Of a DNA stretch of 28,508 bases, positions 7,426 through 22,796 are shown one piece after another. Both the position numbers and the translations under genes were made by a program. Each line of letters starts with the position of its first letter. Position 1 is the stretch's first letter. The DNA lies in the IMG/VR virus record IMGVR_UViG_3300049597_000622, positions 1 to 28,508 of that record; one strand, 5' to 3'. Origin of the DNA: a virus. Below the pieces are notes generated by a model. That model was not told the origin of the DNA. It was given only the letters and a program-made list of their open reading frames with translations, and searched no databases.

Positions 7426-8742
7426 ATGGAATTTGGATTAGATCGAAGCGACCTTTATTTAAATTCAAGCCTATCATTTAAGTTTGAATTTAAGTCTCCT
7501 CTCAGAAGAAGAGACATGGCATCAAAGATTGCAAACAATACTGGCAAAAAAGTAAAGTGGTTTAAAGGAGTAGATGAATCTTTTAAACCTAACACCGATG
7601 TGTTTAAGCTTTCCAACAAATATTCTCATTCATCTAAGACCTTTATTTTTGAAACAGGTCTTTTGCCATATCATGACGCGATAAGATTAATGCTGCAAAG
7701 TATGAATATAATTGATCATTTTGGTCAAACTGATGATCGATGTCAGCTCACGGTAGGCATCTCAATGAATGAACATAAACTAAATTTACCATTTGGAATA
7801 TCAAAATTAAATAAATTTAAGTATTTAATTGGACTGGACGAAGATCAAATCTTAGAATCATGGAACACCGATGATACTGAAAGAAAGAAAATACCTCAGG
7901 GTAATTACTTCTACTTTCATTCTAAGCATCCGTATACTTCGTATATTTCAAATTCAATAATTGAAAAGGCAGATTCGAGCCAATTCAATTTTCCAGAGTC
8001 GGATTTCTTTGGACATCAGTTTAATAAAATAAATGAAGGTATAATTGAAATAACCTACATTGGCGGAAAAGATTATCAAAAAAGGAAAATTGAAGCAAAG
8101 GGGACGATTAATTCTATCATAAACCGAATATACAATACCTTATCTGAAAACTTTAGTTATGATATTAATGAAAGATCTAAATTAAACTCATTAATTGAAG
8201 AATATAAAAGAGCAGTAGATAGTACTAAAAATCCATTAAACCTAAAGTCAAATTATCCTAACATTAAACTATATCACGATCTTAGATCTCAAGAATTTTT
8301 AATTGAATCTACGTATCCTGTTTTTAGAGAAAAAATATTCGATTTAGTTGTTTTTGGAGGGGTTCACATTGCTGATATTAATTGGGACAACACTAGAAAA
8401 ATGCTTCAGGTAAAGGGAGCAAAGATAGATAAAAATGTCGTAATCGAAGGAATTGAGTTCTATAATTGTACAGTCGAGGCAGATGCTAAAAATTGTCTAT
8501 TTAATGCATGTGAAATCAGGAATTCAAAATTAGAAGAGTGCGACGTGATTGCATCTAATTTTATAAAAAATTCTAAATTGATTGAATGCAAATATCACGG
8601 AACCAATAATACTATTTCTAAGAGCTATATTGATAATGATCCAAAAAATATGATTTCAGCTGAACTTAGAGACTGTTTAGTTAATCGAGGATCTTTTAAA
8701 ATAGGATCTGTGATAGATGATAAAACAATATTAATACAATGA
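7426..8742 (+). CDS. Possible amidoligase-like protein with Cys-rich beta-helix end
   Basis: A 438-residue protein. The first ~200 residues contain FEFKSPL (20-26), FETGLLPYHDAI (74-86) and then a C-x-L-T-V-G-I-S-M strand (106-114). This order resembles COOH-NH2 ligase (amidoligase) domains, which carry an E-x-[ST]-P strand and a later [ST]-x-H-x-N strand. Here the expected His of the latter is replaced by Thr, so activity is doubtful. Residues about 330-400 form short repeats with regularly placed Asn-Cys and hydrophobic residues, suggesting a right-handed beta-helix or pentapeptide-like coil. It opens the plus-strand operon and overlaps the next gene by four bases (ATGA). No capsid-targeting peptide is visible at its N-terminus. 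Gene reality is clear; the enzyme family is tentative. Confidence 0.4.
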   Translation: MEFGLDRSDLYLNSSLSFKFEFKSPLRRRDMASKIANNTGKKVKWFKGVDESFKPNTDVFKLSNKYSHSSKTFIFETGLLPYHDAIRLMLQSMNIIDHFGQTDDRCQLTVGISMNEHKLNLPFGISKLNKFKYLIGLDEDQILESWNTDDTERKKIPQGNYFYFHSKHPYTSYISNSIIEKADSSQFNFPESDFFGHQFNKINEGIIEITYIGGKDYQKRKIEAKGTINSIINRIYNTLSENFSYDINERSKLNSLIEEYKRAVDSTKNPLNLKSNYPNIKLYHDLRSQEFLIESTYPVFREKIFDLVVFGGVHIADINWDNTRKMLQVKGAKIDKNVVIEGIEFYNCTVEADAKNCLFNACEIRNSKLEECDVIASNFIKNSKLIECKYHGTNNTISKSYIDNDPKNMISAELRDCLVNRGSFKIGSVIDDKTILIQ

Positions 8743-9317
8743 TAACTAGAATTAAAAGCTTTAGCAGATACCTAGGAGAATCTAAAATCTCAGATTCTTT
8801 GCAATATCACGTTGATCAAGGAATGTCGATTACTGAATCCGTATATAGGCCAGGCAGCTCTGCTCATATTAAACTATTAGTAGAGGCCAGAATGCTTTTT
8901 GAAATGAGATCTCTTGAATTAGGAAGGCTCGATGGTTATTTATTTGAGACCACCGATCTTGGTAAAACTGGCATATATCAAGGAGTTGAAGTTGCGTTAG
9001 ATATGCCACTAGAGGATTTTTCAATTGAAGAAGCCAAATATCAAGGCAGGGAAGTTGAATTAGGAAGACCTATGCGTGGGGGATCTAAAAAATACGTAGT
9101 ATACGTTAAGAATCCTTCTACTGGAAATATTAAAAAGATACAGTTTGGAGACCCTGGATTAAGCGCAAAGGTAAGTAATCCAAAGGCTAGAAAAAGTTTT
9201 GCAGCTCGACATCGATGTGCTGAAAAAAAGGATCGGACGATGGCTGGCTATTGGGCCTGTAGAATTAATAGATATGCTCATCTTTGGGGAGGAAAAACTT
9301 ATCCGGGATATTGGTAA
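8739..9317 (+). CDS. Putative capsid-targeted T4-like phage protein with RHxC...YWxC domain
   Basis: A 192-residue protein in three parts. The N-terminus MITRIKSFSRYLGE|SK has the form of a T4 capsid-targeting peptide ending in L-x-E. Residues 20-95 (LQYHVDQGMSITESVYRPGS..., ending VALDMPLED) resemble a conserved but uncharacterised domain of T4-like cyanophages. The C-terminal part, residues 100-192, has a basic GGSKKYVVYV strand, then FGDPGLS and the RHRCAEKKDRTMAGYWACR signature with two cysteines, as in other phage proteins of unknown function. Further [L/I]-x-E sites occur (SITE|S, LLVE|A), so processing could be multiple. It overlaps both neighbours (ATGA before, TAATG after). Capsid location is inferred from the peptide; function is unknown. 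Confidence 0.6.
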   Translation: MITRIKSFSRYLGESKISDSLQYHVDQGMSITESVYRPGSSAHIKLLVEARMLFEMRSLELGRLDGYLFETTDLGKTGIYQGVEVALDMPLEDFSIEEAKYQGREVELGRPMRGGSKKYVVYVKNPSTGNIKKIQFGDPGLSAKVSNPKARKSFAARHRCAEKKDRTMAGYWACRINRYAHLWGGKTYPGYW

Positions 9318-9862
9318 TGAAATATTTAATAGCATATAGTTTATTTGAATCGAATAGATCTGAAACTAAGGTCAATTTACCAAACATCAGCGATTTAAAA
9401 ATAACGTCTATAAAAACAATTGAAGGTAAAAATAAATGGCATCATTCTAAAGATAAATTAATTCATATGATTTTAGATTTAGGAGAATGGGAAAAATTTC
9501 CATCGAATAAAATCCCTAATTTCTATGATAACCTTAAGAAATATTTGCCATCGATGGATGATCATAGATGTTCAATTGGAAGAAAGGGAGGATTTTTCTC
9601 AAGAGTTAAGAGGGGAACTTGGTTGGGACATATAATTGAGCACATTGCTTTAGAATTACAAACTCTTGCCGGGGATGATACTGGATTTGGAAGAACTAGA
9701 GAAACTAGAAAAAAAGGAGAATATAATGTAATATTCAATTATGAAAATAAAGAAGTTGGAATTAAAGCTGCAAGAGAGGCAGTTAATGTTGCAAAGAGAT
9801 TAATACAAAATAGCGATCCTAAAATAAAATCAATAGTTAAAAATCTAAACATTAAAAAATGA
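9317..9862 (+). CDS. Standalone cyanophycin synthetase N-domain-like protein with HxxEH motif
   Basis: A 181-residue protein from ATG 9317, chosen because it overlaps the upstream stop as TAATG and places a targeting-type peptide (MKYLIAYSLFE|SN) at the N-terminus; an in-frame ATG at 9284 would add 11 residues inside the upstream gene. The rest matches, in order, signatures of the N-terminal domain of cyanophycin synthetase: PSNKIPNFY (62-70), HRCSIGRKGGF (83-93), GTWLGHIIEHIALELQ (100-115), FGRTR (124-128) and YNVIFNYE (136-143). The ATP-grasp and Mur-ligase domains of CphA are absent. HIIEH (104-108) is the HxxEH metal site of this domain, which in some CphA1 enzymes is known to hydrolyse cyanophycin to make primers. 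A hydrolase acting on a peptide-like substrate is therefore plausible. Homology is strong; substrate is unknown. Confidence 0.8.
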   Translation: MKYLIAYSLFESNRSETKVNLPNISDLKITSIKTIEGKNKWHHSKDKLIHMILDLGEWEKFPSNKIPNFYDNLKKYLPSMDDHRCSIGRKGGFFSRVKRGTWLGHIIEHIALELQTLAGDDTGFGRTRETRKKGEYNVIFNYENKEVGIKAAREAVNVAKRLIQNSDPKIKSIVKNLNIKK

Positions 9863-10125
9863 TTTATTTTGATACTGAAATAGATAATTATGTTATACGA
9901 GAGTTTGATGAAGATTCTGATTCAGATGACCTAACTTGGCATCGAGATGCAGAAGATAGAATTATAAGCTCAATTAAAGAAACTGATTGGATGATACAAA
10001 TTGAAGATCAATTGCCTGAGGTAATAATTAATGAAATTGAAATTAAATCAGGGGTTTGGCATCGGTTAATTAAAGGAACTGGAGATTTGACCCTAAAAAT
10101 AATAAAAGAAAATGGAAAACAATGA
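9859..10125 (+). CDS. Small cupin-like protein, unknown role
   Basis: An 88-residue, acidic protein. A beta-rich pattern contains TWHRDAEDR near residues 26-34, DWMIQIEDQLP near 43-53, and SGVWHRLIKGTGDL near 64-77. Two WHR motifs placed at either end of a short beta stretch resemble a minimal cupin/jelly-roll fold, and similar small proteins occur in T4-like phages of cyanobacteria. Only two histidines are visible, so a full cupin metal site (usually three His plus Glu) is not evident. It overlaps the previous gene by four bases and the next by 14, so it is part of the same operon. It lacks the targeting-type peptide of its neighbours. Fold is inferred; function unknown. Confidence 0.5.
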   Translation: MIYFDTEIDNYVIREFDEDSDSDDLTWHRDAEDRIISSIKETDWMIQIEDQLPEVIINEIEIKSGVWHRLIKGTGDLTLKIIKENGKQ

Positions 10126-10672
10126 ATTTAAATCATTTGCAGATACCAGAGAGGCCGGTGCTGAAAAGATTGTAAATAATGCAAAGGAAAAGGGAGGACT
10201 TGCCCTTTTAACTTGGCACCATTTTAAAGTTAAACTTCCTTACTATAAAAAAGCAGCCGCTGGAAAATTTGATTTAGCCGGGGCAAAAAAGGAATTTAAT
10301 GAAACTTATAAAAAAATATCTACTTCTATGACTCAGATAGAATTTCAGAGGGAAGTTGGTAGATTGGAAGTATTAGGTGAATTAATTATTAGGGAGGAAT
10401 CTAATAAAATAAATGAAAAGGCTGAGGTGCTTAGTTATTCTCAATATGTAACTGAAAAAAAAAAGATTAATCCGGTATATTTAACTAAAGATGCTAAAGC
10501 AATGAAAAACGAGATTAAGAAACATGCTAACAAAGATGATGATGACCCAACAGCATACACAAGTGATCCCAAAGGAGAATGGAAAGCTGATTATAATCAA
10601 AAAACAGGTAAACGATGGGGAACTCAAAAGAGTAAACACACTAAGAATTTTGAAAAAATGTTTGGAAAATGA
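10112..10672 (+). CDS. Two-part phage protein with an internal targeting-like site
   Basis: A 186-residue protein. The first half, residues 1-97, is helical and basic (ALLTWHHFKVKLPYYKKA, then a KEFNETYKK helix and EFQREVGRLEVLGELI). In the middle lies LSYSQYVTE|KKK (107-118), which looks like the N-terminal targeting peptides of neighbouring proteins but is internal. The second half, residues 118-186, is Lys-rich with a DDDDP run and ends GEWKADYNQKTGKRWGTQKS..., a pattern I associate with uncharacterised T4-like phage proteins. It therefore looks like a fusion of two proteins, or a precursor cleaved by the prohead protease. It starts inside the preceding gene (14-base overlap) and ends overlapping the next start. 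No enzymatic function is evident. Confidence 0.55.
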   Translation: MENNEFKSFADTREAGAEKIVNNAKEKGGLALLTWHHFKVKLPYYKKAAAGKFDLAGAKKEFNETYKKISTSMTQIEFQREVGRLEVLGELIIREESNKINEKAEVLSYSQYVTEKKKINPVYLTKDAKAMKNEIKKHANKDDDDPTAYTSDPKGEWKADYNQKTGKRWGTQKSKHTKNFEKMFGK

Positions 10673-11346
10673 TATTAAATTTTAATGAATATTTAATCCT
10701 TGAACAAGGTACGAACTCTTGTCCGTTAGCTACTCAAGATCTAAAGGTAAATACTCAAAATCGTAACGAAGCAATAGAGGCAGACTATATTAAATATGGA
10801 CCACTAAACCTCAATGACGAAAAATATTGGGACGAGTATGCTAAAAAATGGAATACTGAACCTGAGGTTGCAAAGCAATCTAATTGTGGAAATTGTGTAG
10901 CTTTTGATATTTCACCAAGAATGAAAGATTGTATGCCAGGGGAGGTTTCAGATCCGGATGGAAAACTTGGTTATTGTTGGATGCATCACTTTAAATGTCA
11001 CTCTGCTCGTACGTGCTATACTTGGGCGGCAGGAGGACCTATTGAAGAAGATTCAGTTTCAGCAAATTGGCAAAGTAAGAACGAAGGAAAAGTCGATGAA
11101 AAAAGAAAAACTAAAAACTCTCCAGACTGGCATGATTCAGATGCACCAGATGCTAATGGAAAATTTAAAAAACTTGGGGTAAAAGAACTTGCAAAATGGT
11201 TAATTAGAACTAGAGGAGGAGATATGCGTAAGATTACCGGAAGCCTAAACCAACAGATAGTATTTAATCGAAACGATAATCCAGCATACGCTAAAAAGAT
11301 GGAGAGCGTTAGAAGGGAAGTAAAAAAACAATTAAATAAAAAATGA
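10669..11346 (+). CDS. Cys-rich putative capsid-targeted protein, unknown function
   Basis: A 225-residue protein opening with MILNFNEYLILE|QG, a targeting-type peptide ending I-L-E. The body has seven cysteines (18, 73, 76, 88, 103, 110, 116) and nearby His106, His107 and His111, in the order CP...CGNC...C...GYCWMHHFKCHSARTCYTW. This arrangement suggests a metal or Fe-S binding domain. The C-terminal segment (about residues 168-222) is separate, with LGVKELAKWLIRTRGG and a Lys-rich final helix. Similar two-part proteins occur in T4-like phages, without assigned function. Overlap with the next gene is ATGA. The metal-binding idea is inference from the Cys/His pattern; capsid location is inference from the first 12 residues. 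Confidence 0.55.
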   Translation: MILNFNEYLILEQGTNSCPLATQDLKVNTQNRNEAIEADYIKYGPLNLNDEKYWDEYAKKWNTEPEVAKQSNCGNCVAFDISPRMKDCMPGEVSDPDGKLGYCWMHHFKCHSARTCYTWAAGGPIEEDSVSANWQSKNEGKVDEKRKTKNSPDWHDSDAPDANGKFKKLGVKELAKWLIRTRGGDMRKITGSLNQQIVFNRNDNPAYAKKMESVRREVKKQLNKK

Positions 11347-11624
11347 AAATCTTTACATTTTTAGAATACTTAGTAGAATCTTCAAATTCAGATACTGCTT
11401 TAAAAAATAAATCTGAAAAAACTGGGATTCCAAAGGGAATCTTGAAACAGGTTTACAATAGAGGACTTGCTGCATGGAAAACAGGACATCGTCCTGGAGT
11501 AGGTCAACATCAATGGGCAATGGCTAGAGTTAATTCTTTTGCAACTAAATCTTCTGGTACCTGGGGAGGAGCGGATAAGGATCTAGCAGCTAAAGCTAGA
11601 AAGGCTAAGAAAAATAAAAAATAA
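11343..11624 (+). CDS. Small basic putative capsid-targeted protein
   Basis: A 93-residue protein with N-terminus [14 protein letters not shown], the best match in the operon to the T4 capsid-targeting consensus. After the predicted cut, the protein is very basic and contains [20 protein letters not shown] and a [18 protein letters not shown] segment, a conserved unit seen in many tailed phages and large viruses without known function. It ends in a Lys/Ala-rich tail ([11 protein letters not shown]) suited to binding DNA. It overlaps the previous gene by four bases, and the next gene starts after a five-base A-rich gap. A packaged DNA-binding or internal head protein is a reasonable guess; this is inference. 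Confidence 0.6.
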
Positions 11625-12222: not shown

Positions 12223-14193
12223 ATGGGAATAGTTTTGTGTATGATCGTTAAAAACGAAAGCAGAGTCATTGAGCGATGCTTGGCTAGTACAGTGGGAATA
12301 ATTGATGAATATTGTATAGTAGATACTGGATCGACCGATGGAACCCAAGAAATAATAATTAAATTTTTTAATGATCGCGGAATAAAGGGAAGAGTGATCG
12401 ATCGAGAATGGAAGAACTTCGGCCATAATCGAACTGAGGCTCTTGATTTAGCTAGAGAATCTTCGTGCAATTGGATCTTAACTATAGACGCAGATATGGT
12501 CCTAATTAATGAGGGATTTAATAAATCTGAATTAGATACCAATTATTCTCATTACGAGGTGTTTCAACAAAATCCTGGAATTAAGTACACTAATATTCGC
12601 GTAATGAATTCTAAATATAGATGGAAATCAGTTGGAGTTACTCATGAATATTTAGCTGCGGATAATTGTAATGTAGGAGGAAAACTCTTAGAATCGATAT
12701 TAATTAATGATATTGGAGATGGTGGAAGCAAGGAAGATAAGTTTGAACGTGACATCAAATTATTAACGCAGGGATTAATTGACGAGCCTAATAATGAAAG
12801 ATATGTATTCTACTTAGCTCAATCCCATAAAGATACTCAGAATTTTGAAAAGGCAATCGAATTTTATAAGAGAAGAGTTTTAATGGGAGGATGGTATGAA
12901 GAAGTATGGTACAGTTACTATATGATTAGTAACTGCTATTCTCAATTAAATAAATTGGATGAAGCCGCAGAATGGGCAATTAAAGGACATGAATATCATT
13001 CAGGAAGAGCCGAGGCTCTATATGAGATGTGTAAAAAATTCAGAGAGATTGGAAAACATCAAGACGCACTTAAATTCTACAATCTTGGAAAAGATATAAC
13101 TTATCCTAAAGAGGACAGGCTCTTTGTGAATTATTCTTTATATGAGAATAAATTATTTGAATATGAGATGTCGATCCTATATTATTATTTAAATCCATCT
13201 ACTAGAAATTTAGGCTCTAGAATATCAATTTCATATCTATCAGATAATCCAGCTAATCATACAATAGGATCAGTATTTAATAATTTAAAGTTTTACGCAA
13301 ATACTCTCACTAAAGATGGATTTAAGATAGAATCGATAGAAATAGATCCTTCTATAATTCCAGATGGTTTTATAAACTCATCTCATTGTAAAATAGATTC
13401 AGATTTGCATAATATTAGACTAGTTAATTATAAAATAGATCGATCTAATGGAGCATATCACTATCAATCTGACGGAAGACATATGGGTTGGGAGGAACTT
13501 GCAAAAGAACCCGTTAAAACACTAAATTTGCTTAATGGAAAATGGATCATGCAAGAAGAATATAGAGTTCCAATACATGAGGGTGCAAGAGTAGAAGGCA
13601 TTGAAGATCTTAGATTATTTAAGGCAGAGGATGGATCGATTAAATTCCTGGCAACTTCCCAATTTATAAGTCCTAATCAAGGAAATAGAATATGTTCTGG
13701 AATATATGATGTTGAGAATAAAAAGATTATAGTTGATCAGGTATTCGATAGTCCAACAGGATCAGGCTGCGAAAAGAACTGGGTATTTTTGAATGAGAAT
13801 GAAATTATTTATGGTTGGAATCCAGTTACAGTCTATTCATATCCAAGTATGAGTGAGGCTAGAAAATTTGAAGTCCCAGTCTTATTTTCTTTTTTTAGAG
13901 GATCCACTTCTGCAATTGAGATAGGTGGTCTATTATACATAGTAGTTCATTCAGTTAACTATGAAAACCCAAGGACATATCTTCATTATTTAATAATTAT
14001 GGAAAAGAACGGTAAGCCTGTGATGCACAGTTCTCCATTCTCTTTTGAAGGAGAACCGATCGAATATTGTCTCTCTATAAATTCAGTTAATGACGAAGAA
14101 TTAGAATTTAATTATTCAACTTGGGACAGTACCTCAAAATCAATCAGGGTCCCTCTTACCTATTTCTATAATAAAATGTTCTATCTAAAATAA
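12223..14193 (+). CDS. GT2 glycosyltransferase-TPR-GH130-like propeller fusion
   Basis: A 656-residue three-part protein. Residues 1-125 are a GT-A family 2 glycosyltransferase: VKNES (9-13), VDTGSTDGT (33-41) for the nucleotide, and the DAD metal motif (89-91). Residues about 187-290 are TPR-type helical repeats (YVFYLAQSHKDTQNFEKAIEFY and two more). Residues about 330-656 look like a five-bladed propeller of the GH130 type: EGIEDLRLF (458-466), CEKNW (516-520), FRGSTSAI (558-565), VVHSVN (574-579), FEGEPIEYCLSI (608-619). GH130 members are glycoside phosphorylases or hydrolases. The protein could make and trim, or make and bind, a glycan. It probably has its own promoter (TATAATAA at 12199-12206, 16 bases before ATG). 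GT2 is firm, TPR likely, and the propeller assignment is moderate. Confidence 0.85.
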   Translation: MGIVLCMIVKNESRVIERCLASTVGIIDEYCIVDTGSTDGTQEIIIKFFNDRGIKGRVIDREWKNFGHNRTEALDLARESSCNWILTIDADMVLINEGFNKSELDTNYSHYEVFQQNPGIKYTNIRVMNSKYRWKSVGVTHEYLAADNCNVGGKLLESILINDIGDGGSKEDKFERDIKLLTQGLIDEPNNERYVFYLAQSHKDTQNFEKAIEFYKRRVLMGGWYEEVWYSYYMISNCYSQLNKLDEAAEWAIKGHEYHSGRAEALYEMCKKFREIGKHQDALKFYNLGKDITYPKEDRLFVNYSLYENKLFEYEMSILYYYLNPSTRNLGSRISISYLSDNPANHTIGSVFNNLKFYANTLTKDGFKIESIEIDPSIIPDGFINSSHCKIDSDLHNIRLVNYKIDRSNGAYHYQSDGRHMGWEELAKEPVKTLNLLNGKWIMQEEYRVPIHEGARVEGIEDLRLFKAEDGSIKFLATSQFISPNQGNRICSGIYDVENKKIIVDQVFDSPTGSGCEKNWVFLNENEIIYGWNPVTVYSYPSMSEARKFEVPVLFSFFRGSTSAIEIGGLLYIVVHSVNYENPRTYLHYLIIMEKNGKPVMHSSPFSFEGEPIEYCLSINSVNDEELEFNYSTWDSTSKSIRVPLTYFYNKMFYLK

Positions 14194-14198
14194 AAATC

Positions 14199-14930
14199 AT
14201 GTATATACTAAATCCTAAAAAACAATTCATTAAATTAGATCCTGAATCCTTTTTTATAAATGACCCTAATGTTGGAGCCTGGATGTTCAGTTCAGGCATA
14301 CCTGAATGGGGACATATTCAATGGTGTATTGATAATTTTATAAATTCAGAAGTTAACTTTGTAGACATCGGTGCTCATATTGGTACTTATAGCTGGACGA
14401 TTGCTCCTCATGCAAAACATACTTATTCCTTTGAGTGTAACCCGGAGGTTTATAACTGTATGTGTGCAAATATTTTTTTAAAAGATTTAAATCATAAGAT
14501 AACAGCCTACAGTTTCGGATTATCATCTGATGAAGGTGAAGCCACTTATTATGTTAGATCTAAAGACGGCGGAGGAAATGGATTTACTTTTCTAGGAGAA
14601 AAGAGAGAAGAGTCATCATTAGGTACACTCAAGTTGCCTCTAAAGAGATTAGATGATCTAAATATAGAGAATATTGGCCTAATTAAGATTGACGTAGAGG
14701 GTCACGAAATACATGTTCTTAAAGGAGCATTAAAGACTCTAGAAAAAAATAATTGGCCTCCTATTTTATTTGAAAGCTGGGACGAATGGAGAGAAACTAG
14801 AGAGCACATGATACCTGCGTCTAAATTGAGATCTGAGTTATTTCAATTCTTGAATAATATTGGATATTCAATCGTGCCAGTTGGAAATAATTCTGAGATC
14901 TTCCTAGCTGAGTTTAACCGAAACTCCTGA
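14199..14930 (+). CDS. FkbM-family SAM-dependent methyltransferase
   Basis: A 243-residue Rossmann-fold methyltransferase. SAM motif I is VDIGAHIG (55-62), an acidic Glu79 in SFEC follows, and the FkbM signature LIKIDVEGHEIHVLKGA lies at about 161-177. The family methylates hydroxyls of sugars and related molecules. It follows the glycosyltransferase by five bases (A-rich AAATC before ATG), so the two probably act on the same glycan, for example O-methylating a transferred sugar. Its last 17 bases overlap the end of a convergent minus-strand gene (14914-15501). The family assignment is strong; substrate is unknown. Confidence 0.9.
   Translation: MYILNPKKQFIKLDPESFFINDPNVGAWMFSSGIPEWGHIQWCIDNFINSEVNFVDIGAHIGTYSWTIAPHAKHTYSFECNPEVYNCMCANIFLKDLNHKITAYSFGLSSDEGEATYYVRSKDGGGNGFTFLGEKREESSLGTLKLPLKRLDDLNIENIGLIKIDVEGHEIHVLKGALKTLEKNNWPPILFESWDEWRETREHMIPASKLRSELFQFLNNIGYSIVPVGNNSEIFLAEFNRNS

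Positions 14931-15500: not shown

Positions 15501-15501
<1 letters not shown>
14914..15501 (-). CDS. Beta-rich protein, probable fibre-associated
   Basis: A 195-residue protein with a Thr/Ala-rich start (MAVTTVTTAMAG) and a beta-rich body containing QILSMGTSPISLLAAPGVGF and an AYTYPGGAKRLGIGY segment. The sequence ends AKIWYKIRSFG. A strand order of [LT]-x-x-P-[IV]-x-L-[LV]-A-A-P-G-x-G is a recurring feature of phage fibre-tip and head-decoration proteins. It follows the large collagen-like fibre gene directly, sharing TAATG, so it is likely made with that fibre and may cap or attach to it. Its stop overlaps the convergent methyltransferase gene by 17 bases. It could also be a fibre chaperone. 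Function is inferred from adjacency. Confidence 0.5.
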
Positions 15502-19274
<3,773 letters not shown>

Positions 19275-19288
19275 TTTTATTCTTTATT

Positions 19289-19966
19289 TTATACCATTTC
19301 TATACTTATCGATACTATTAAAGATAATCCAGTAGATGTATCTTGAGTATCATTTGAATTCCTATACATTAGGACGGCGACTGGATCTCCAGGATCAACG
19401 TCGGTTCCTAAGAAAGTAAGAGAAGTTGACGTTAATGTATTACCATTTGCAGTATAAACATAAGATTGCCACTCAGTTTCTGTGTCTGTTCCTAATGCAC
19501 CACCAGCAGTTGGTTTCGCTAAACCTATAAAATGTTTTATATCACCTGTAATGTTTGCCGCTGCAGCTGATGATACAATAATAATTTTAATACTTGATCC
19601 AGGCGGAAAATATGAAGGTACGGTAGTTCCAGCCATGCATCCTTGTATTGCAGGCGCAGTTCCACTAAATTCTTGAGCTCTCCATCTTTGATTTATCCAT
19701 TGGATGGTTGAACCTGCAGTCATAGTATCACCGTTCCAGACAAATCCTGTTACAGTGGTACCCATGTCATATGCATAGAATGAATCTATCTTTTTTTCAG
19801 TTGGCCCAGTTGGCCCAGTATTACCGATAGGTCCAGTTGGTCCAGTTGGCCCGTCAATAGTAGATGATATGATTTTCCATATACTACCGTCCCATTGCCA
19901 CTTATTGCCGCTCGGGCCAATATAAATTTCTCCTATTGATGATGGTATTGGAAAATTAAGAGGCAT
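19289..19966 (-). CDS. Short collagen-like fibre protein
   Basis: A 225-residue fibre protein. The N-terminus (GEIYIGPSGNKWQWDGSIWKIIS, residues 12-34) is paralogous to the start of the 1158-residue fibre. A short collagen stretch follows (39-56), then a beta-rich globular domain (57-225) with many aromatic and Gly residues, probably the receptor-binding or trimerising head. It is preceded 17 bases upstream by AATAAATA. The shared N-terminal domain implies that this short fibre and the long one attach to the same type of socket, or one caps the other. Confidence 0.75.
   Translation of the reverse strand: MPLNFPIPSSIGEIYIGPSGNKWQWDGSIWKIISSTIDGPTGPTGPIGNTGPTGPTEKKIDSFYAYDMGTTVTGFVWNGDTMTAGSTIQWINQRWRAQEFSGTAPAIQGCMAGTTVPSYFPPGSSIKIIIVSSAAAANITGDIKHFIGLAKPTAGGALGTDTETEWQSYVYTANGNTLTSTSLTFLGTDVDPGDPVAVLMYRNSNDTQDTSTGLSLIVSISIEMV
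19799..19852 (-). repeat. Short collagen-coding repeat in short fibre
   Basis: It encodes 18 residues (39-56), [18 protein letters not shown], only six triplets, linking the N-terminal attachment domain to the globular head of the 225-residue fibre. Confidence 0.8.

Positions 19967-20354: not shown

Positions 20355-22796
<2,442 letters not shown>

Follow-up and report, generated by a model that had tools for sequence, protein, structure and literature searches.

A 28,508-nucleotide stretch of virus DNA (IMG/VR virus record IMGVR_UViG_3300049597_000622, positions 1 to 28,508; the whole stretch is referred to as the window) encodes on its plus strand, at positions 9317 to 9862, a protein of 181 residues with an ATG start that, judged by its sequence, is the N domain of the cyanophycin synthetase CphA1 alone. 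In our best reading, to which we give an even chance, this protein is a packaged zinc endo-cyanophycinase that attacks the nitrogen granules of the host. A preliminary description of the window had reported a standalone CphA N domain with a putative capsid-targeting peptide; its coordinates were correct and all five sequence motifs that it had named were found, in the order given.

Homology of the window protein to the CphA1 N domain is practically certain. It matched PF18921 with 150.8 bits (E=1.9e-44), above the family threshold (cut-off 27), and in a Pfam scan at E up to 1 this was the sole family, with neither an ATP-grasp (G) nor a Mur ligase (M) domain and no PF03575. The best solved relative in a phmmer search was SuCphA1 (7lg5, E=1.9e-38); its E82Q mutant and TeCphA1 were also matched. 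Since the NCBIfam profile TIGR02068 aligned to the protein at positions 1-148 of 862 only, with 179 bits vs a whole-protein cut-off of 850, the synthetase domains G and M are absent. Among 50,697 phage records searched at E≤0.01 no relative was detected, and a PHROG search at E up to 1 gave no match. Of the plasmid records 20 matched, the ten listed being annotated as Mur ligase or cyanophycin synthetase.

A fold model predicted by AlphaFold2 from 39 aligned sequences had a mean predicted local distance difference test score (pLDDT) of 88.8, with values of at least 90 at 151 of the 181 residues, values below 50 at residues 1-16, and block means of 85-98 across residues 21-180, the last block excepted. 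Together with the CphA1 alignment, which starts at residue 27, these blocks delimit a folded domain of about residues 27-165 (9395 to 9811, plus strand). Foldseek ranked CphA1 first (7txv, E=5.5e-15), and VIA-align superimposed the predicted chain on six SuCphA1 and TeCphA1 entries with Z scores of 24.5-26.0 and root mean square deviations of 1.2-1.4 Å over 155 residues. Z scores were lower for CphA1 of T. morbirosei (TmCphA1, 16.5) and A. baylyi (13.9) and for CphA2 (12.6-13.6). The nearest structures carry the hydrolase motif, which is present in TeCphA1 and whose hydrolase activity has been demonstrated for SuCphA1 (PMC9262961), while TmCphA1 and CphA2 are described there as devoid of it. 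Below Z 8, the VIA-align rows (EutL, microcompartment shell and others) were taken to reflect no more than a common arrangement, and a single-sequence structure model with a pLDDT of 38.8 was set aside. Profile, sequence and model together exclude a chance match or misannotation of the domain. The preliminary interpretation was partly supported. Of the two checks that it had proposed, the profile search against CphA N domains gave an overwhelming match, and in the overlay on CphA1 the predicted chain fitted the N domains closely, the residues for metal binding and general base catalysis all being kept in the alignment.

In SuCphA1, C59, H79 and H83 are the metal ligands and E82 is the general base (PMC9262961). 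The corresponding Cx19HxxEH motif is complete in the window protein, with C85 (9569 to 9571) as predicted third zinc ligand and H105-I-I-E108-H109 (9629 to 9643, both on the plus strand) as predicted zinc ligands and general base. The domain is present in 17 IMG/VR contigs besides the record of the window, and the motif was seen in 16 of these; the contig of the 17th, L026, ends ahead of it. For residue counts we aligned 11 phage rows, representing 11 of the 17 contigs (L002 also stands for the identical window, L001 and L003; the copies or near-copies L007, L008 and L024 and the cut-off L026 were left out), with 80 bacterial rows, the best of at least 562 confirmed loci when ordered by similarity to the phage query. 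In SuCphA1 numbering, H57, C59, S60, F67, R70, H79, E82, H83, E87, Q89, R100, T101, R102 and Y110 were invariant in all 11 phage and all 80 bacterial rows. The ratio of nonsynonymous to synonymous substitution rates (dN/dS) was 0.09-0.17 between the window copy and six other copies with finite dS (dS at least 1.2), which points to purifying selection; for the pair with L020, dS was saturated. A zinc site and an endo-cyanophycinase function are predicted, and the phage domain is very probably an active hydrolase.

M16 inverzincins combine HxxEH with a Glu, Asp or His downstream as third ligand, a distinction from the N domain that is drawn in PMC9262961. In the phage proteins the third ligand, by homology, would instead be the upstream Cys kept in all rows. 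A hydrolase site, as proposed in the preliminary description, is supported by the retention of HxxEH and its neighbors; its wording of an isopeptide-type polymer as substrate was wrong, because the bond hydrolyzed by the SuCphA1 domain is the peptide bond in the main chain of cyanophycin rather than the isopeptide branch (Sharon et al. 2022, PMC9262961). The 17 other contigs, the purifying selection and a contig with an empty insertion site (L174, see below) exclude that the gene is a decayed fragment or an assembly join.

Further support for a free-standing life of the domain came from the loop that meets the M domain in the synthetase. On its own, the SuCphA1 N domain became soluble only once Y14S and I17T had been introduced into this loop (PMC9262961). 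Across the 80 bacterial rows, 65 columns showed conservation of 95% or more, and five of them differed in all 11 phage rows. Three of the five fell within residues 12-20, which hold six conserved columns, compared to two of 59 elsewhere (Fisher p=0.004, with columns rather than lineages as units, taken as independent, and with loop bounds chosen around the residues named in PMC9262961 after the alignment had been seen). The changes were P12 to Lys, Y14 to Lys or Arg and R19 to Lys in the loop, and V24 to His and Y142 to Pro outside it. I17 was polar or Tyr in phages, and Asn also in 17 of the 80 bacterial rows. In the window protein the region corresponds to residues 38-46 (9428 to 9454, plus strand) and carries P12K, Y14K, I17H and R19K. 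The loop is charged at Y14, one of the residues mutated for solubility of SuCphA1, so that the phage domain has been altered at the very place where a protein without its partner domain would need it.

The second feature that sets the phage protein apart is its N terminus, MKYLIAYSLFE (9317 to 9349, plus strand), which resembles the capsid-targeting peptides of phage T4. In T4, about ten N-terminal residues send internal proteins into the head and the protease gp21 cuts after L/I-X-E (PMC9026906, PMC9958956), and foreign enzymes bearing such a peptide are packaged and delivered into the host cell (PMC9026906). By the L/I-X-E rule of PMC9026906, the window protein would be cut after E11 (L-F-E, before S). 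Each of the 12 further stand-alone copies whose start is intact has an N terminus of MKYL, MKYI, MRYL or MKHI, then Y, then (L/I/V)FE; the copy in L009 is cut off.

We then compared how often open reading frames (ORFs) of related records start with such a tag and how often shuffled sequences do. In the 436-kb record G003, a loose LxE rule matched 165 of 497 ORFs (shuffle mean 105.9, maximum 136), a narrow regular expression 70 (14.3, 24) and a wider one 64 (18.8, 32). The wider expression matched 22 of 154 ORFs in the 136-kb record G002 (mean 4.9, maximum 12) and 27 of 246 in G014 (9.4, 17), and at internal Met positions 57 of 1609 (436-kb record) and 8 of 479 (136-kb record). Sharing of the tag with other ORFs of the same phage was weakest in the 136-kb record. 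Six of the 30 ORFs in the window matched the wider expression, two of which (baseplate and cupin-like) we took as chance. Ten tagged ORFs of the 136-kb record were chosen for a Pfam scan, which assigned families to three (NlpC/P60 with CHAP; GDSL; M23 with a peptidoglycan-binding domain) and none to seven. In the same record, L111 and L112 contain a run of tagged ORFs, some of hydrolase families, with the appearance of a set of head-borne or injected hydrolases.

A gp21-type prohead protease was found in two of the ten virus records searched, G003 and G016. G003 encodes a head maturation protease (phrog_207, E=1.3e-30) as well as capsid and portal genes. In this record (L148:7288-9387) the maturation protease is joined to an extended array of YSEYLAENLDKNI-like units, in every one of which L-A-E could be a cut site; it is perhaps a protease-scaffold fusion.

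In a second group of phages, contigs L022-L025, the domain lies at the protein start, with ESIRRIL(R/N)E and a further region joined behind it in the same frame, giving fusions of 297, 305, 305 and at least 611 residues. The domain is therefore not always stand-alone, and the preliminary description of a separate protein applies to the window but not to these four contigs. ORFs of this group start with MNLQENIRRILREE or similar in 14 of 90 cases in G016 and 6 of 112 in G017, vs shuffle means of 0.1 and 0.2, and the fusions with the domain contain this group-specific tag type as well. This second tag was absent from G002 (0 of 154), G003 (0 of 497) and G014 (0 of 246), and the first tag showed no excess in G016 and G017. 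G016 encodes a gp21-type protease (PF03420, E=1.6e-22), and the second peptide may likewise be a capsid tag. That one domain goes with two tag types is, in our view, the best indication that it is cargo subject to sorting. By analogy with T4, we consider packaging of the phage domain into the capsid quite probable. The putative capsid-targeting peptide proposed beforehand is backed by the tag counts and by the prohead protease in two related records.

Two observations on the second group may be added. The 1057-residue tagged ORF at L023:1152-4325 contains tag-like ES..KS stretches that by eye seem repeated, an arrangement reminiscent of a polyprotein cleaved at more than one place. The ORFs at L023:4372-4968, directly upstream of the N-domain gene, and at L154:16725-17765, near a prohead protease, are seemingly related and share a metallopeptidase-like motif HE(T/L)AHQYQ while differing in their tags (MNLQENIRRILKEE and MKKIVRLTESDLTRIIKRVISEQ); a Pfam scan of both detected no peptidase family.

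In a tree of 93 rows, built by a quick method on few columns (as the program warned), the 11 phage rows formed one clade (SH-aLRT support 100) nested among Bacteroidota CphA1 rows. Its sister row was a Chitinophagaceae sequence at 89, the branches nesting the phages among bacteria had supports of 85-89, below the starred level, and the phage stem measured 1.01 changes per site. The sister support and the long stem leave the donor unsure, and one from another phylum would be compatible with the tree, in which two cyanobacterial rows are the only comparison outside the sampled group. Among the best 80 of the at least 562 bacterial loci, 77 had Bacteroidota titles, the others being Williamsia (L065) and "uncultured bacterium" (L087, L093); the 80 were 47-57% identical to the phage query, and the frame was whole in 70 (874-939 residues from stop to stop) and cut by the contig end in 10. 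The two that were examined over their whole length, L027 and L030, are full synthetases above the TIGR02068 cut-off.

A common stand-alone protein of bacteria was ruled out in a set of 395 Bacteroidota genomes. Of the 50 PF18921 matches in these genomes, 49 lay in frames of at least 708 residues. The single short one, of 171 residues in G190, belongs to a CphA1 gene that an insertion has divided; by eye, sequence of the G and M domains lies beyond the insertion. This locus (L147:3410-9969), where the N domain is intact, constitutes a natural knock-out of the synthetase part and has cyanophycinase-like and isoaspartyl-peptidase-like ORFs in its surroundings (by eye). The insertion has the look of IS66.

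The host of these large phages is likely a member of the Bacteroidota. Among the 25 matches listed for the window terminase, all at 27-34% identity, the nearest were uncultured huge phages, phage PAU and Tenacibaculum, Prevotella Lak and Flavobacterium phages, and Pseudomonas and Stenotrophomonas phages were listed next. The 436-kb relative shares 70% identity in its capsid protein with an uncultured phage of 642 kb, in which the phage-record search found no N domain.

Taken together, these data suggest the following course of events. Large T4-like phages would have captured the N domain of a Bacteroidota-type CphA1 as capsid cargo. During assembly the N-terminal peptide would draw the protein into the prohead core, where a gp21-type prohead protease would cut after (L/I)-x-E and release the folded domain, to be ejected together with the DNA. 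In the host, the predicted Cys-His-His zinc site with its Glu general base would cut the poly-aspartate backbone of cyanophycin internally, so that granules are broken up, more chain ends are offered to the host's own cyanophycinase, and arginine and aspartate become available early in infection. That the host would continue from the new chain ends is suggested by the lack of cyanophycinase and isoaspartyl peptidase families in the phage records and by the frequent presence of a cyanophycinase in CphA1-bearing Bacteroidota (PMC10206079); the last step of cyanophycin breakdown is less clear. Cyanophycin is fairly probable as substrate. The full scenario, in which the virion carries a ready-made enzyme aimed solely at the intracellular nitrogen store of the host, with the cutting domain taken, the docking loop rewritten, the product sorted by the genome's own tag type and the granules opened before viral gene expression, appears to us slightly less than evenly probable.

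Several observations weigh against a packaged endo-cyanophycinase. Regarding the enzyme, the M-domain residues S603 and E607, which help to hold cyanophycin, are absent from the phage protein, dN/dS in two close pairs of copies was 0.39 (5 differences) and 0.28 (11 differences), and the SuCphA1 N domain, an endo-enzyme favoring 4-mers, is slow, acting within hours to days (PMC9262961). Regarding the pathway, Peptidase_S51 (PF03575) and Asparaginase_2 (PF01112) were each detected in none of nine virus records, the CphA1-bearing Bacteroidota, while frequently having cyanophycinase, are described as frequently without IaaA and IadA (PMC10206079), and PF18921 occurred in 48 of 395 Bacteroidota genomes, a set that includes its centre G012, picked for its CphA1, so that a host able to make cyanophycin is presumed. 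Regarding the tag, V replaces L or I in L005-L008 and L026 (VFE), the regular expressions were composed after viewing the sequences, and in the 136-kb record neither the loose rule (46 of 154 ORFs, shuffle mean 32.3, maximum 47) nor the narrow expression (9 of 154, mean 3.15, maximum also 9) exceeded the shuffle maximum. The PF03420 match in G003 remained below the cut-off (22.5 bits vs 27), and no prohead protease was found in eight of the ten virus records searched, including G002 and G014, although these records may be partial. Finally, we infer the zinc, the cleavage and its cyanophycin substrate, the packaging and the host, and also when the enzyme would act and how the phage would profit.

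The same enzyme could act on the same substrate without being packaged if it is made in the infected cell, its N-terminal peptide serving as another kind of leader, and works late or on granules freed at lysis. Packaging is deduced from tag resemblance, a prohead protease went undetected in most of the records, and the gene has tail and packaging genes around it, a class whose expression usually comes late. We nevertheless regard this explanation as unlikely, since the tag exceeded the shuffle maximum in G003, in G014 and, with the wider expression, in G002, and since the second group pairs the same domain with a different tag and has a gp21-type protease in G016.

Somewhat less likely still is a repurposed metallohydrolase that kept the fold and zinc site and acquired another target, such as host peptidoglycan, capsule or protein. 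Such a role would agree with the hydrolase families in three of the ten scanned tagged ORFs of the 136-kb record, with the missing S603 and E607 contacts and with the long stem branch. However, of the SuCphA1 side chains that touch cyanophycin (R70, S60, Y110 and E90; PMC9262961), the first three are kept, and the Thr that phages have at position 90 is shared with 70 of the 80 bacterial rows. It is improbable that the domain supplies (beta-Asp-Arg)4 primers and thereby alters cyanophycin synthesis in the host rather than emptying the store. The isolated SuCphA1 N domain added in trans does confer primer-independent synthesis on TmCphA1, and active N domains raise the yield about 2-fold in E. 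coli (PMC9262961), but a phage would presumably gain little from more storage, the best 80 bacterial CphA1 loci all carry the hydrolase motif already, and the docking loop has been altered. Most improbable is a head protein without catalysis that binds cyanophycin or has a structural role; the neighborhood of structural genes could speak for it, but all catalytic residues are invariant over a long branch and selection is purifying.

Compared to known systems, the phage protein shares with the SuCphA1 N domain (7lg5/7txv, PMC9262961) the predicted fold, the Cx19HxxEH metal site with its surroundings and 45% identity over the aligned part, and differs from SuCphA1 in lacking the ATP-grasp and Mur ligase domains, in its charged docking loop, in its tag-like N terminus and in being phage-borne. 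The closest sequences in the genome-collection search (best 80 of at least 562) are the Bacteroidota CphA1 proteins, of which L027 and L030 are full synthetases. The T4 internal proteins IPI-IPIII (PMC9026906, PMC9958956) resemble it in the N-terminal peptide of about ten residues, the cut after L/I-X-E, which for the phage protein is predicted, and cargo that is not highly conserved, but belong to a different phage lineage, and the accessible sections describe no storage-polymer hydrolase among them. Cyanophycinase CphB, a serine enzyme of Peptidase S51, would have the same substrate if our reading is right and is of an unrelated family. The BFVD entry A0A6J5PU94 from an uncultured Caudovirales phage is longer (245 residues), has the same predicted fold and is 58% identical over 152 columns; as this entry, named by its domain only, bears the domain name, the occurrence of the domain in phages has already been recognized by machine.

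No description of a phage-encoded CphA1 N domain was found in the open-access literature, most subscription papers lying outside this search, and the accessible sections of PMC11265339 and PMC7466765 mention no phage-encoded cyanophycin enzyme. Each part is of a known kind; new to us is the combination, in which a CphA1 cutting domain stands free and carries a tag as putative phage cargo. In 2022 the cryptic hydrolase was described as a part of the CphA1 synthetase (Sharon et al. 2022, PMC9262961). Evolution seems to have set this N domain free as an independent enzyme. This favors the view that it is a real catalyst, and the phage protein offers biochemistry a naturally free-standing version. 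If packaged, it would tie phage infection to the release of bacterial nitrogen reserves, probably outside cyanobacteria, and the tag types may help to guess which proteins these large phages inject. We know of no storage-polymer hydrolase carried as virion cargo, and the phage domain would in that case be the first.

The window derives from a virus record with a terminase gene and a baseplate gene, the latter assigned on the same gene in the 136-kb relative. The ATG at 9317 overlaps the TAA of the upstream gene and the stop codon at 9860-9862 overlaps the ATG of the downstream gene, as in translationally coupled genes. The upstream neighbor (8739 to 9317, plus strand, 192 residues, phrog_7595, E=1.4e-12) has a tag-like N terminus, MITRIKSFSRYLGE followed by S, and the downstream neighbor (9859 to 10125, plus strand) encodes 88 residues that are cupin-like by eye, with no family above its cut-off in a Pfam scan.

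These two genes form the left and right flanks of a one-gene presence/absence cassette. L174 matches the left flank at 91% identity and the right flank at 89% but lacks 9317-9858 (give or take the few bases shared at the joint), and there the 192-residue gene abuts the small cupin-like gene directly. The missing domain is not its only difference, as about 430 bases inside the counterpart of the ORF at 10669 are also gone. The phrog_7595 gene has 372 confirmed relatives in IMG/VR; from the best 80 of these we dropped L182-L184, which are of the window's own type, and in 62 of the remaining 77 loci the cupin-like gene was the next gene after the phrog_7595 relative, while in 10 it lay at a greater distance. 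It was not seen in the other 5, and in three of these the contig ends there. The N-domain motif was not seen in the stretches around these 77 loci, a count that is not a frequency since the carriers L005, L008 and L020 were not among them. As the gene pair lacks the insert in most loci, it looks older than the insert. L005 and L008 have the domain between the same two genes, as does L020, where an additional ORF is present. The domain lies at another site, between other tagged ORFs, in the 436- and 263-kb records and has therefore been placed at least twice. The conserved pair 8739-9317 and 9859-10125 also encloses other inserts in other phages, including a tagged ORF (L209) and, in L189, L243 and L260, what we take to be a GIY-YIG endonuclease.

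Further downstream on the plus strand, an ORF at 10669 to 11346 has the tag-like N terminus MILNFNEYLILE followed by Q, and the adjacent ORF at 11343 to 11624 (DUF5824) also starts in a tag-like manner. By eye, a glycosyltransferase-like ORF (12223-14193) and an FkbM methyltransferase-like ORF (14199-14930) adjoin the tail genes, and the ORFs at 15501-18977, 19289-19966 and 20355-22796 are tail-fibre-like with collagen-like GPTGxTG repeats.

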